From contig JAFXIC010000039.1 of assembly GCA_017533485.1 (NCBI GenBank), positions 1 to 34,762 of the forward strand: 34,762 nucleotides of DNA. The letters run 5' to 3'. The DNA is from Oscillospiraceae bacterium. Lineage in GTDB: Bacteria > Bacillota > Clostridia > Oscillospirales > Ruminococcaceae. Under the pieces are notes generated by a model, which ran no database searches, was not told where the DNA came from, and was given only the letters and a program-made list of their open reading frames with translations. The first letter of the stretch is position 1. Every line of letters starts with the position of its first letter. This document shows, piece after piece, positions 23,273-28,969 of the stretch. The position numbers and the translations under genes are program-made.

Positions 23273-23393
23273 GAAAGGGGCAAACCAAGGGCAAGGGGGA
23301 GTGTTCGAACACCGCTCTCACGTCTCCCCCTTAACCCTATGGTTTTCCCCTTTCAAACCCCTTTCCGTTACCCATCCCCCTCTAGAGGCGTGC
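23273..23393 (+). repeat. Modular palindromic repeat, copy 2 (partial)
   Basis: About 120 bp nearly identical to 1951-2064: the GGGGCAAACCAAGGGCAAGG module, the GTTCGA hairpin region (here GAAC-ACC-GCTC, with one mispair), and the C/T-rich block ending CCCATCCCCCTCT. The downstream 23-nt palindrome and GGGGC hairpin of copy 1 are missing, so the element is truncated. Positions 23394-23525 between this copy and the next repeat block hold no recognisable gene. Confidence 0.85.
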
Positions 23394-23525
23394 TCTTACG
23401 ATAAAAATGGTTGGAAAAATATGCGTGCTGATGATTTGTATGCTGTATTGGGTGCGGTGATTGTAAGTAAGTGCGTTCTGATAAGGTGTAGCATAAGAGA
23501 GGAGGGGATGAGGTGGAAGGGGGTA

Positions 23526-23598
23526 CAAGGGGGAAACCCTGAAGGGGAGGAGAGAATGCGCGGGAGCGCTCTTTCCTCCCCTATGGGTGTCCCCCTTG
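23526..23598. repeat. Large imperfect inverted repeat within the palindromic repeat cluster
   Basis: CAAGGGGG (23526-23533) pairs with 23591-23598, ACCC (23536-23539) with 23585-23588, and GGGGAGGA (23544-23551) with 23574-23581, giving a long stem with small internal loops. Its right arm and the sequence after it recur inverted at the end of the window (34734-34762), so it belongs to the same repeat family. Confidence 0.65.
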
Positions 23599-23788
23599 GT
23601 TATTTTCACGAATCTAAAAAGAGGAGGACGAAAGAAAGAGGAATGTTCGAGCAATGCTCTCACGTCTCCCCACATAACCACGGGCAATCAATTGCCTACT
23701 GTTTTTCCCCCTTGGTTGTTTTCACGAATCTAAAAAGAGGAGAACGAAAGAAAGAGGAATGTTCGAGCACCGCTCTCATATCTCCCCC
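23591..23788 (+). repeat. Tandem 81-bp units of the palindromic repeat
   Basis: Two direct units (23591-23671 and 23707-23788) each run from CCCCCTTGGTT through TTTTCACGAATCTAAAAAGA and GAATGTTCGAGC to a TCTCCCC end. Both keep the hairpin GAGC-NNN-GCTC while its loop differs (AAT at 23653-23655, ACC at 23769-23771; GCG in copy 1). A 14-bp palindrome GGCAATCAATTGCC lies in the 35-bp gap between units. An open frame of 186 codons across the region has no ribosome binding site and consists of repeat sequence. Confidence 0.8.
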
Positions 23789-23795
23789 TTGTCAT

Positions 23796-24242
23796 TTACC
23801 TGCAAAACAGATAATATATGATACCGTATAGTACCGAAGCTGTTGTCCCGTAAAGAATCACCGGCCCTGCGATCGTGAATATTTTCGCTCCGACACCAAG
23901 AATATATCCTTCGGTTCTGGATTCCACTGCCGCCGATGCGACCGCATTCGCAAATCCTGTGATCGGTACAAGCGTTCCTGCGCCCCCATGCTTTGCGAGC
24001 TTTTCATAGAGTCCGAGTCCGGTAAAGACTGCGGAACAAAAGACCAGTATCACCGAAGTCCATGCCGCCGCCGCATCCGGTTCCACCTCAAAATAGAGAA
24101 GAAGCTGACGAATCCCCTCCCCCAGCATACAGATTGCACCGCCGATGAGAAATGACTTTATGCGTGTAGCACTCCCGTCTGTCCGATTCGATTCCTTGCT
24201 GACAAGCGACTGATATTCGTTCGGGGTAATTTTCCGGCTCAT
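23796..24242 (-). CDS. spoVAC: Stage V sporulation protein AC (SpoVAC) homologue
   Basis: 148 aa from ATG 24242, which has AAAGGAGC about 11 nt upstream. The protein starts MSRKITPNEYQSLVSKES, then has TM segments at about 30-50, 63-80 and 115-147, with the conserved FLIGGAICMLGEGIRQLL and the loop TLVPITGFANAVASAAVE-RTEG-ILGVGAKIFTIAGPVILYG. SpoVAC is part of the channel that moves dipicolinic acid into and out of spores; the Bacillus protein also behaves as a mechanosensitive channel. Its usual neighbours spoVAD and spoVAE are not here. The frame extends upstream of 24242 only as antisense to the neighbour. The leader carries an unusual promoter/hairpin arrangement. Confidence 0.93.
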   Translation of the reverse strand: MSRKITPNEYQSLVSKESNRTDGSATRIKSFLIGGAICMLGEGIRQLLLYFEVEPDAAAAWTSVILVFCSAVFTGLGLYEKLAKHGGAGTLVPITGFANAVASAAVESRTEGYILGVGAKIFTIAGPVILYGTTASVLYGIIYYLFCR

Positions 24243-24246
24243 ATCA

Positions 24247-24300
24247 AAAACCGCTCCTTTCCGTAAGATAACAATAGTATCTGCGGAAAAAAGCGGTTTT
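24247..24300 (-). terminator. Terminator of the upstream gene that also hides the spoVAC ribosome binding site
   Basis: In minus-strand RNA, 24284-24300 pairs with 24247-24263 over 17 consecutive pairs (two G-U), with a 20-nt loop, followed by U residues. The 3' arm includes the whole AAAGGAG of spoVAC. On the plus strand the two G-U positions become A-C mismatches, so the structure is specific to minus-strand RNA. It begins 7 nt after the stop codon of the preceding gene. Confidence 0.75.
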
Positions 24301-24305
24301 ATGCA
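24275..24305 (-). promoter_or_regulatory. Candidate forespore (sigma-G type) promoter of spoVAC
   Basis: On the minus strand, TGCATA (24300-24305), 18 bp, GATACTA (24275-24281). This resembles the sigma-G pattern (-35 like TGMATA, -10 like CATAMTA), the sigma factor that drives the spoVA operon in Bacillus. Transcription would start inside the hairpin loop and so omit the 5' arm. Confidence 0.5.
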
Positions 24306-24306
24306 T

Positions 24307-25641
24307 TCAGGGTGCAGGGTTGATGGTGTATTTTGGGGTATCCGGCTGAATGAGGTGATATTTTCCGTCCAGCTCCTCGACAAAGGATACGGTATCGGCT
24401 TCGAGAATCCAGATGCGCCGTACACAGTCACCGATTTCCGACTGATACGGGGAGAAGCTCCAGAGGTTTGAGGAGAAAGTATACGTCGGCTCATAGTCCT
24501 TGATAAAGCCTTTGATATTATGATGTTTCTGGAGATAAGCCTGGACATCATCAAGTGTAGCTTTTTCGGCATGGAGATTTTCGGAGAAGCCATAATCAAA
24601 CGGTTCGGATTCCAGCTTTTCCGAAATTGCCTTTGTATATTCTTCTGTCTGCGCCTCTGCGGTATGTGTAAATACAAATTCACGTGTACCGGGGTCTTCC
24701 GCGCCGGTACGGTATCCGACATTCACAAGTGTCAGACGATACTTTGTATTGACCGTAAAGGTTCCGGGTGTAAAGCCGGAGAGGAGAAGAGACTGGGTTG
24801 AATTGGGGGGGAGTTTCAGACCGGATTTTTCGAGGGAGAGGGGCTGATCGCTGATCGGCGCAGTAGAATTTTCGAATGTCACAGAGCATCCGCGCGAAAC
24901 AGAGATTTCAGAATCCGTGCCATTCGCGAGGAGAATCGTAACAGAAGAATCGGAATTGACATAGACATCATAAATCACAACATCCTGACACTGGCGGAGT
25001 TTTTCTTCTACCGCCTGTATTGGTTCGAGGGATGCACGATATTCCGCGGCTGCCTTATTCAGATATGCGGTGGAGTTGTCGAGTATCGCCTGCGTGTTTT
25101 GGTTCGGCGGGTTCATGGACAGCGTCAGCGGTTCGATGAGGTTGCAGCGGATATTGGTGGCGAGCGTCATGCAATTGGCTCTGGCTTTCTGATAGGCATG
25201 GAGGAGGGCGGTGATTTCGTCATGATTTTTGGTGACATCGGAAGCAGCCCCCACCTGACTCGTGGTTACGATATCCGAGGAATCGGGTGTGGAACTGGGA
25301 GCATCCGGTTTTGTGGCAGAGGCTTTCCGGTAGAGAAAGAGGCCCATGCCGCCGATGAGGGCGAGGGAAGCGGCAATGCTGGCGAGGGAGCGGATTTTTT
25401 GCCGGATGGAAGATCTGCGGTGAGATTTCGGAGCCGTGGGCAAATTGGTGACGGTAAAATCATCGGTGTCCGGCGTTTCTTCGAAGCGATGGGCTGCGGC
25501 ACGCTGGGTTTCGGGATGCATTGCAGCCTGATAGCGGATTTTCCGGAGTGTTTCCGCACGAAACCGCTGGGACGCACGAATTTTCTTTGCGGACTCGGCA
25601 TATTCCGAGAGCAGATCATGGGTTGTATAATCCTCGTTCAT
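24307..25641 (-). CDS. Single-pass membrane protein coupled to the ECF sigma factor, possible anti-sigma factor
   Basis: 444 aa from ATG 25641, whose ATGA overlaps the sigma factor stop codon; AAAGGAGG lies inside the sigma gene. A cytoplasmic part (1-95; YAESAKKIRASQRFRAETLRKIRYQ is helical and basic) precedes one TM (about 99-117) and an extracellular region of some 325 residues. This has a Ser/Thr-rich linker, a helical stretch (about 150-210) and a beta-rich domain (about 215-335) that looks like an immunoglobulin-type fold by its hydrophobic pattern. There is no zinc HxxxCxxC anti-sigma motif. The position makes it the likely regulator or sensor for the sigma factor; the extracellular region is not recognised. 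Confidence 0.65.
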   Translation of the reverse strand: MNEDYTTHDLLSEYAESAKKIRASQRFRAETLRKIRYQAAMHPETQRAAAHRFEETPDTDDFTVTNLPTAPKSHRRSSIRQKIRSLASIAASLALIGGMGLFLYRKASATKPDAPSSTPDSSDIVTTSQVGAASDVTKNHDEITALLHAYQKARANCMTLATNIRCNLIEPLTLSMNPPNQNTQAILDNSTAYLNKAAAEYRASLEPIQAVEEKLRQCQDVVIYDVYVNSDSSVTILLANGTDSEISVSRGCSVTFENSTAPISDQPLSLEKSGLKLPPNSTQSLLLSGFTPGTFTVNTKYRLTLVNVGYRTGAEDPGTREFVFTHTAEAQTEEYTKAISEKLESEPFDYGFSENLHAEKATLDDVQAYLQKHHNIKGFIKDYEPTYTFSSNLWSFSPYQSEIGDCVRRIWILEADTVSFVEELDGKYHLIQPDTPKYTINPAP

Positions 25642-26138
25642 ATGGCAGCGTCCTCCTTTCTGAAATGATGTTCGGTACAAAGCGCTTTGATTTTGATCCG
25701 TGCACGGCGAATCCGGGAAGCGATGGTTGCGCGCGGCGTATGCAGCATTTCGGCGGTTTCATCAATGGAATAGCCCTCGACGAAATGGAGACACATCGGC
25801 ACACGGACTTCTTTTGGAAGGCTCATGATGATACTCAGGACGGATTCCTCACGGCTGGTAAATTCGGTATAGCCGAGGGAAATCTGATCGGATTCGAGGG
25901 AGACTGTGCGGGTATGCTCCGCAGATTTTCTATAATCCTTGGCGAGATTGACCGCCGTCCGGATGAGCCACGGAAGAATATGCGCATCGGTCATATGGTC
26001 GGGTGCGGAAAGGAGCCGGAGGAATGCTTCCTGGGTACAGTCCTCTGCTTCCTGCATCCTGCCCGTCATATGCCATGCGGCACGCAGCACGATATCAGCA
26101 TAATCAGAAAATGCCTGTTCTACGCGGCTTTTCTGCAT
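25638..26138 (-). CDS. ECF-family RNA polymerase sigma factor
   Basis: 166 aa. Region 2 is seen as YADIVLRAAWHMTGRMQEAEDCTQEAFLRLL and LPWLIRTAVNLAKDYRKS (about 13-72); region 4 as LPKEVRVPMCLHFVEGYSIDETAEMLHTPRATIASRIRRARIKIK (about 108-152), a clear helix-turn-helix. Region 3 is absent, as in ECF (extracytoplasmic function) sigma factors. GGAGGTGA precedes ATG 26138. Translation is coupled to the membrane protein downstream through an ATGA overlap. The target regulon is unknown; an ECF-like promoter upstream suggests autoregulation. Confidence 0.93.
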   Translation of the reverse strand: MQKSRVEQAFSDYADIVLRAAWHMTGRMQEAEDCTQEAFLRLLSAPDHMTDAHILPWLIRTAVNLAKDYRKSAEHTRTVSLESDQISLGYTEFTSREESVLSIIMSLPKEVRVPMCLHFVEGYSIDETAEMLHTPRATIASRIRRARIKIKALCTEHHFRKEDAAI

Positions 26139-27514: not shown

Positions 27515-28969
27515 TCAATTCCAGTAGAGCTGGAGTACATCACCGGAAACGGTAATGCGGCGGATGAGGCATTGCGCGACAGATTTTTTCACCGCGTCCT
27601 CACAGCTTGGAAACGGCGGAAAATCGTAGCTTTCGGCTGCGGCGTCAGCACGCCTGACCGCGGCTTCGAGCTGTTCACAGCGTTTCGAAAGACGGGTGAT
27701 TGCGGCGGCAACCGCCGGTATATCCACATCCGCCAGATCGGTAAGACTTTGTTCGAGCTTTGCACGCTGTATATTTGCGGAATTGAGCGCGAGCAGTACC
27801 GCAGGATCCTGTGTGTTCGGGATACGGCGTCTGGAAAGTGCGGCAAGCCGATGGGTGAGGGCTTCGTCGAGGAGCTGCTCTGCGTCAGCCCGATGCCAGA
27901 CCGAACCGATGCCGATGCATTTCCCTCTCTTTTTTCCGCCGCAGATCAGATATTCCGTGCTGCGTCCCGAAACGATCGTTGCCGCTGCACCGCATTGCGC
28001 ACAGAAGATCAGTCCGCTGTAGAGGAAACGGCGTGAAGAACCGAGGGTACGGCGGTTCCGGCAGCGGTTTAATTTTTCCTGACAGGCAAGCCAGACTTCT
28101 GACGGGACGATACCGAGATGCGGCGCACAAATCGCGTATACACCGTGCAGATTATTTTGTTTGGAGGGATTCTCGCGGCGGTCGGCATAGAGATAGACGC
28201 CGTGGTGTTCGGGCAGCGGTTCGGGAATACAAAGGCACGCACCCTGACGGGAAAGATAGGAATATACGCCGCTGTCCGCCCTGACATAGACCGGATTCCT
28301 GAGTACACGCCGCACGCTTTCCGGCTGCCAGATACTGCCGCGAGCGGTCGGGATTCCCCGTTCGTTCCAGTCTTTGGCGAGGATGGAAAGCGAGCCGTCC
28401 GCAAGCAGATACTGTCGGAAGCCATCGGTCACGACCGGTGCATTTTCATCCGCTTCCAGCATCTGCGTATGTTTTCCGCAAAGCGTCGTCGGGATTTTCC
28501 GGAATCCGAAGGGTGGTGTACCGCCGGTATCAAACCCAAGCTTTGCGCGTGCGAATGCAGCATCTCTGACGCGGCTGCTGATCGTTTCCCGTTCGAGCTG
28601 TGCGAAAACCATCAGCAGACTCTGCATCGCCTGTCCCATGGGTGTTTCGGTTTCGAAGCGTTCGGTATGGGAGGAGAAGCTGACATGATGGGCGCGGAAT
28701 ATTTCGAGCAGACGCGTGAAATCCGCAAGATTACGGCTGATACGGTCGAGCTTATAGACAATCACGCTGCTGACGATATCGGCCTCGATATCGGAAAGCA
28801 GTTTTCGGAGTGCGGGGCGGTCGGTATTCTTTCCCGAAAATCCACGGTCCGCATATACCAGAACCTCGGCATGATCGGGGAGATCTGTGCGGCAGAGCGC
28901 CTCCTGTGTCTCCAGACTGACGCTGTCGGCACGTTCGAGCGACTGACGGACATAAATCGCATGGTGCAT
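27515..28969 (-). CDS. Large serine recombinase (site-specific integrase/resolvase)
   Basis: 484 aa. The N-terminal resolvase domain has IYVRQS with catalytic Ser10, then YADRGFSGKNTDRPALRKLL and VYKLDRISRNLADFTRLL. The recombinase domain begins near FGFRKIP, with VRRVLRNPVYV. A zinc-ribbon-like part has CAQCG and CGGKKRGKC, followed by a coiled-coil segment (about 395-445). Such enzymes integrate, excise or invert DNA at att sites. GGGGAGG lies about 9 nt before ATG 28969. No phage, transposon or conjugative genes and no obvious att repeats flank it: its neighbours are an MreB-family gene and cellobiose phosphorylase. It may be a relic of a mobile element or act on a distant site. Confidence 0.92.
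   Translation of the reverse strand: MHHAIYVRQSLERADSVSLETQEALCRTDLPDHAEVLVYADRGFSGKNTDRPALRKLLSDIEADIVSSVIVYKLDRISRNLADFTRLLEIFRAHHVSFSSHTERFETETPMGQAMQSLLMVFAQLERETISSRVRDAAFARAKLGFDTGGTPPFGFRKIPTTLCGKHTQMLEADENAPVVTDGFRQYLLADGSLSILAKDWNERGIPTARGSIWQPESVRRVLRNPVYVRADSGVYSYLSRQGACLCIPEPLPEHHGVYLYADRRENPSKQNNLHGVYAICAPHLGIVPSEVWLACQEKLNRCRNRRTLGSSRRFLYSGLIFCAQCGAAATIVSGRSTEYLICGGKKRGKCIGIGSVWHRADAEQLLDEALTHRLAALSRRRIPNTQDPAVLLALNSANIQRAKLEQSLTDLADVDIPAVAAAITRLSKRCEQLEAAVRRADAAAESYDFPPFPSCEDAVKKSVAQCLIRRITVSGDVLQLYWN

Follow-up and report, generated by a model that had tools for sequence, protein, structure and literature searches.

In phage T4, the long early RNA of the lysozyme gene hides its ribosome site, and the short RNA from the late promoter does not. 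For sigG (spoIIIG) of Bacillus subtilis, a large hairpin in the read-through RNA has been proposed to block translation (Masuda 1988, Sun 1991, cited in PMC5942855), and PMC5942855 describes this hairpin as unable to form in RNA from sigG's own promoter. Mistimed forespore products can be harmful to growing cells, as the same paper reports for misexpressed sigG (Mearls 2018, PMC5942855).

We analyzed the leader of a spoVAC-like gene in a contig from an Oscillospiraceae bacterium (GCA_017533485.1, JAFXIC010000039.1); "the window" below is the whole stretch of DNA analyzed, 34,762 nucleotides. Among openly licensed papers, none was found that treats spoVAC together with promoter, translation and hairpin. 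Among the matches listed for broader queries (title and start of abstract), only PMC5942855 bears on a lock of this sort.

The spoVAC-like locus and its hairpin

On the minus strand, an ECF sigma gene is followed by a gene of 444 aa and then by the spoVAC-like gene. The features are:

25638..26138, minus strand: ECF-type sigma factor gene (profile searches), overlapping the 444-aa gene
24307..25641, minus strand: upstream co-directional gene, 444 aa (ORF, profile searches)
24300..24305, minus strand: -35 element TGCATA of a sigma-G-type promoter (sequence, motif enrichment)
24284..24300, minus strand: 5' arm, AAAACCGCUUUUUUCCG (folding), within the -35/-10 spacer, its first base common to the -35 element
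24275..24281, minus strand: -10 element GATACTA, 18 nt after GCATA (sequence, motif enrichment)
24268..24270, minus strand: expected transcription start in the hairpin loop, placed from the -10 spacing only
24247..24263, minus strand: 3' arm, CGGAAAGGAGCGGUUUU (folding), including the Shine-Dalgarno
24254..24259, minus strand: spoVAC Shine-Dalgarno AAGGAG, inside the 3' arm
23796..24242, minus strand: spoVAC-like gene, 148 aa, ATG at 24242 (ORF, profile searches)

The spoVAC-like product matched PF03862 (E 1e-39; 135.9 bits, passing the cut-off of 25) and scored 151.7 bits against TIGR02838, below the cut-off of 164. Neither Pfam nor NCBIfam gave a match for the 444-aa protein at E <= 0.001. 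It contains one hydrophobic stretch (by eye); judged by position only, it is probably the partner (anti-sigma) of the ECF sigma factor, the two genes (24307-26138) perhaps making up a sigma/anti-sigma pair. Elsewhere in the window, the region between spoVAC and a long ORF (23293-23790) holds an 82-nt direct repeat in two copies (93%) and a 40-nt repeat family in three copies; the long ORF beyond it is a candidate pyruvate:ferredoxin oxidoreductase, by eye. A large serine recombinase gene with Resolvase, Recombinase and zinc ribbon domains (27515-28969) sits between an MreB-like gene and an 819-aa ORF.

The stop codon of the co-directional upstream gene (TGA, 24309-24307) lies 64 nt ahead of the spoVAC start codon (24242-24240), a geometry suited to read-through. 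Within this gap, following the TGA on the minus strand, come TGCATA, an 18-nt spacer, GATACTA and AAGGAG. The promoter that the sequence-only reading had placed just after the upstream stop, TGCATA-N18-GATACTA, is present, and as GCATA-N18-GATACTA it scored 10.9 (p 0.010, the lowest value that 100 shuffles allow), with a G in its -10 element where the sigma-G consensus has C. The sigma-F/G motif searched for was GHATA/R, 17-18 nt and a NATNNTA or CAT(N2)TA-like -10 element, under our own scoring. At shuffle p <= 0.05, this motif type occurred in 44 of 93 distinct spoVAC leaders versus 7 of 103 neighbour genes. The 5' arm (24300-24284) precedes the -10 element (24281-24275) and hence lies upstream of the expected start; since promoter and 5' arm overlap, RNA from this promoter would lack that arm. 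The 5' arm takes up no extra room, because it sits within the -35/-10 spacer.

Promoter-like sequences also precede two other genes of the same genome, GCATG-N18-CATACTA at a sigG-like gene and GTATA-N17-AATGCTA at SpoVAD. The sigG-like gene scored 360.7 bits, the best of seven match stretches; the model cut-off of 457 was reached by none of 30 genus genomes. SpoVAD and SASP are also encoded in the window's genome. In genome G000, spoVAC is on contig C23, apart from SpoVAD and a SpoVAE-like match on contig C75, and the neighbours of spoVAC differ widely across the family. Leader design varies as well. Most SASP leaders of the genus (L089-L113) have a CACGGCAGC block directly after a -10-like ATACTA and then a leader of about 70-130 nt, quite unlike spoVAC or sigG leaders. 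Five spoVAC leaders (L069, L071, L073, L076 and L080) have GGTGAT as their best Shine-Dalgarno match, separated from ATG by only 3 nt. With a -10 element that ends 14 nt ahead of ATG, their sigma-G RNA leader would be very short.

Folding of the minus-strand RNA bore out the stem described in the sequence-only reading: 24284-24300 pairs with 24247-24263 in 17 consecutive pairs, two of them U-G, with a short inner helix in addition, and the Shine-Dalgarno (24259-24254) is buried within the 3' arm. The two G-U pairs are, as that reading had it, specific to the minus strand, plus-strand RNA having two mismatches at the site. The hairpin alone (24300-24247) had a predicted energy of -26.7 kcal/mol (z -8.2), and within a 90-nt RNA the value was -30.1 kcal/mol (z -4.7); neither was equalled in 200 shuffles. 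When the upstream part was dinucleotide-shuffled 4000 times, the stem score of the window was never reached. That score is 38, and the highest value among 103 neighbour genes of related loci was 22; the two top-scoring of these genes turned out to be SpoVAD leaders. The stem of the window is not due to chance. An Rfam search of 24100-24450 gave no match at gathering score, the only hit being Ref64 (18.8 bits, gathering 44.3, E 0.48).

Conservation in a sister genome and access to the ribosome site

The genus sample comprised 30 genomes, the window's own and 29 others, many of them incomplete. A spoVAC protein match was found in 28 of the 30, weakly in two (G004, G017). The 444-aa upstream gene was found in two, the window's genome and G020; because many genomes are incomplete, other carriers may have been missed. 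In both genomes it stands directly before spoVAC, with 39-40% identity between the upstream proteins and 75% between the spoVAC products. The stem is kept in this one sister with the same gene order, where 16 of 17 pairs remain through seven substitutions. Six pairs differ: one has exchanged both bases (C-G to A-U), four carry a one-sided change and still pair, and one is broken. When substitutions were drawn at random, with the Shine-Dalgarno fixed and 60% transitions assumed, at most one pair was broken in 1.5% of trials. The stem score of G020 was reached by 1 of 4000 upstream shuffles, and its predicted fold buries the start codon too, AUG pairing with CAU of the -35 element.

The predicted probability that the Shine-Dalgarno is unpaired was 0.00 in the long RNA of both genomes, versus 0.75 (window) and 0.83 (G020) in RNA beginning at the expected start. 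By accessibility of the Shine-Dalgarno, G020 and the window ranked first of 67 leaders (p 0.005 and 0.010), 6 of the 67 being at p <= 0.05. A strict occlusion cut was reached by 8 of 108 promoter-bearing leaders versus 5 of 99 neighbours and 0 of 24 spoIVA leaders, and a looser one by 13 of 108 versus 12 of 99 and 4 of 24. As accessibility hardly separated the gene sets, it was dropped as the sole measure, and two others were added beside it: own-versus-swapped pairing (see below) and the opening cost, that is, the extra energy needed to open the leader from Shine-Dalgarno through AUG in a 75-nt versus a 28-nt leader. This extra cost was 17.7 kcal/mol in the window and 15.4 kcal/mol in G020; the 99 neighbour genes had a mean of 1.16 and a maximum of 8.5 kcal/mol, with 5 of 99 at 5 kcal/mol or more.

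We consider the hairpin to be, with fair probability, a promoter-nested ribosome-site lock. RNA reading through from the operon of the ECF sigma factor and its partner would carry both arms which, to go by folding and comparison, would form the 17-bp hairpin and hide the spoVAC Shine-Dalgarno; stray or vegetative transcripts should then escape translation. Sigma-G polymerase, as the motif suggests, would start in the hairpin loop, and its RNA, having the 3' arm only, is predicted by folding to leave the ribosome site open. A ribosome ending the upstream gene would, from its size, be expected to cover just the outer few pairs. Vegetative expression of the upstream operon and read-through from it are presumed in this scheme.

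Hairpins at other sporulation genes

For a wider comparison, 76 spoVAC starts, six of them corrected by hand, gave 67 distinct leaders. Neighbour controls went from 103 to 99 on removal of four that were spoVAC or spoVAD leaders; SASP starts were located by tblastn; and the sigG tests used 25 of 26 leaders, the window's own being left out because no Shine-Dalgarno was recognized in it by the script. At p <= 0.05, the upstream region formed a stem with the ribosome site in 16 of 67 spoVAC leaders versus 8 of 103 neighbour genes.

In the own-versus-swapped test, the upstream region of each leader was set against its own ribosome site or those of relatives, one leader per similarity cluster being retained. 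Stem-score z values were 3.4 for sigG of the genus (25 leaders, 12 clusters), 3.0 for spoVAC of the genus (26 leaders, 16 clusters), 5.9 for spoVAC of other genera (70 leaders, 51 clusters) and 2.8 for spoVAD (24 leaders, 21 clusters). No excess was seen for neighbours (-0.1; 99 leaders, 89 clusters), gpr (-0.6; 25, 17), SASP (-0.5; 25, 9) or spoIVA (-2.3; 24, 13). The gpr leaders have no obvious sigma-G-type promoter (by eye) and SASP promoters lie 70-130 nt upstream, beyond the 70 nt tested, so these two sets are controls for base composition and not for promoter-nested arms. When the three sigma-G genes of the genus were pooled, the energy z was -6.9 at the ribosome site, -0.5 at early codons, -1.8 in the region further upstream and -5.2 at the antisense ribosome site; in spoVAC of other genera the antisense value was -4.6 versus -4.3 for sense. 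As the antisense signal is nearly equal, this test alone cannot tell RNA from DNA. The region further upstream also scored in spoVAD (-2.8) and in spoVAC of other genera (-2.4).

An opening cost of at least 5 kcal/mol was found in 13 of 25 sigG leaders; among spoVAC leaders it was found in 17 of 70 from other genera and in 6 of 26 from the genus. The controls gave 5 of 99 for neighbours, 2 of 24 for spoIVA and 1 of 25 for gpr. As sets, sigG (p 1.7e-5) and spoVAC of other genera (p 0.0031) differed from neighbours, and no difference was seen for spoVAC of the genus (p 0.14) or spoVAD (p 0.59). Two candidates were set aside. Without the window and G020, spoVAC of the genus (22 leaders) showed no stem-score excess (z 0.8, p 0.23; ddG p 0.017), and a genus-wide lock at spoVAC was rejected on the loss of that excess. 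As a third locked gene, spoVAD is not claimed, because its opening-cost result (2 of 24) was no better than that of controls despite its z of 2.8.

For sigG in other Clostridia, we took the best 30 of 186 matching genomes among 291 searched. In these 30 loci a co-directional ORF, its tail like IKRLKKE, ends 74-213 nt upstream and is probably sigE. These loci gave a z of 4.2, and their longest stem had 17 pairs (L265; 14 in L287); they serve as a positive control because a hairpin has already been described at sigG of B. subtilis. Covariation within a hand-chosen sigG subset of seven sequences was weak: a single pair had both of its bases replaced (CG to UA, in two sequences), and the count of such double changes was reached by 279 of 500 shuffles.

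Strength of the spoVAC hairpin went with the position of the upstream gene. The 22 spoVAC leaders with a co-directional ORF ending within 64 nt (automatic call) had a mean hairpin z of 2.69, versus 0.48 in the other 45 of 67 (Mann-Whitney p 2.7e-4, uncorrected for relatedness); the mean was 0.28 for leaders with a co-directional ORF farther away (18) and 0.62 for divergent ones (27). The contrast was stronger (3.46 versus 0.48) when 17 co-directional leaders were selected by hand, and 4 of 48 leaders outside this selection also had z >= 2. We relied on the automatic set, which includes unverified ORFs (L005, L018, L023 and L059, with no Pfam match). Mean z in seven co-directional lineages, drawn up by hand, was 7.2, 4.3, 4.2, 0.8, 2.7, 3.7 and 1.0. 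Two co-directional leaders (L015, L027) had no hairpin, and two divergent ones (L069, L085) had one. At L083 and L088, where z was -0.1 and -0.6, a SpoVAB-like gene stands upstream (Pfam-confirmed for L088 only), so read-through is probably the normal message there.

Arm sequences differ among loci. In the Ruminococcus group, spoVAC follows a histidine kinase gene (Pfam tested for L055) and the arms do not resemble the window's, being AATATTCCGC/GCGGAATATT in L055-L057 and AAATCAGTCTTTT/AGGAGGCTGATTT in L065 and L070. L068, whose upstream protein is similar at its start and end, has a terminator-like repeat (by eye) ending just ahead of the -35 element, and the lock is absent (p 0.52). In L010, the pairing joins CATAAGAA of the spacer to TTCTTATG at the start codon.

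Outside the window and its sister, the effect is far weaker and uneven. It may be, as a tentative generalization, that forespore genes of Clostridia lying behind co-directional genes repeatedly evolve a lock against read-through, with the promoter region (the spacer, sometimes the -35 element) serving as the anti-ribosome-site arm. If so, the choice of sigma factor would decide translatability as well as transcription. It is common for sporulation genes to sit tightly behind unrelated genes, and a lock opened by the start site would explain how they are insulated in compact genomes without separate terminators. A single proposed case, B. subtilis sigG, would become a testable pattern with named loci in uncultured gut Clostridia.

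Alternative explanations and comparison with known systems

The hairpin might instead serve chiefly as an intrinsic terminator for the ECF sigma operon, forced by the 64-nt gap to overlap the spoVAC ribosome site, which we regard as unlikely. The layout of an A-tract, a 17-bp stem with a G+C-rich part and then UUUUUGAU would suit a terminator, which would also predict the concentration of hairpins where a co-directional gene ends close by. Yet four of the five residues of the UUUUU tract pair with the A-tract in the predicted fold, and the stem encloses about 20 nt; a terminator scan for loops of 3-8 nt did not list it. Among 52 stems scoring at least 17 (sigG, spoVAD, spoVAC), the window is one of five with a U-rich tail, whereas 47 lack one, and own-specific pairing was strongest at the ribosome site. 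The sister has UUUGU in place of UUUUU; it is mainly because pairing is kept there and the U-tract is not that we prefer, from these two genomes, a ribosome-site lock to a terminator. The two-layer lock of the sequence-only reading is supported in part: folding and comparison favour the ribosome-site hairpin with its nested promoter, and the terminator layer finds no support in the UUUGU of the sister and the 5 of 52 tails, although the copy in the window may still act as a terminator. That vegetative transcripts would fail to express spoVAC is a prediction of that reading.

Nor does it seem at all probable that the inverted repeat is a DNA operator around the promoter for a forespore regulator such as a SpoVT-like protein. 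A repeat with its centre close to the -10 element, a core of TTCCGC...GCGGAA in several leaders (by eye) and the nearly equal antisense signal are what a DNA repeat would give; arm sequences and spacings, however, vary widely among genes and species, each leader pairs specifically with its own partner, and sense-strand stems hold a modest excess of G-U over A-C (103 versus 64; 56 versus 52 in controls). A repeat that arose by chance or survives as a relic, next to a genuine sigma-G promoter and with no regulatory role, would fit the 51 of 67 spoVAC leaders with stem p > 0.05. We give it very little credence for the window, whose stem score none of the 4000 shuffles reached and whose sister keeps the stem with a compensating change, even though the upstream protein is so diverged.

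The ribosome-site lock that we favour shares features with several known systems. Like spoVAC, some intrinsic terminators overlap a downstream ribosome site and consist of a stem followed by U residues; the spoVAC hairpin differs in its long loop and in its U-tract, which is mostly paired and is lost in the sister. The T4 lysozyme gene belongs to a phage and involves other sigma factors. In Bacilli, a small hairpin in the sigG leader also hides the ribosome site of a forespore gene; as PMC5942855 describes it, that hairpin has five pairs, is present in transcripts started at sigG's own promoter and damps expression, whereas the spoVAC hairpin would not form in RNA from the spoVAC promoter. The closest likeness is to the large hairpin of B. 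subtilis sigG, according to the same paper also a read-through-only hairpin at a forespore gene behind a co-directional gene (PMC5942855). Compared by the description in PMC5942855, the gene there is sigG and the upstream genes are the spoIIGA-sigE operon; here spoVAC follows an ECF sigma operon and the 5' arm sits inside the promoter spacer. The mechanism has already been proposed for B. subtilis sigG, a point that the sequence-only reading did not make, and, by analogy, spoVAC appears to be a case of the same kind at another gene.
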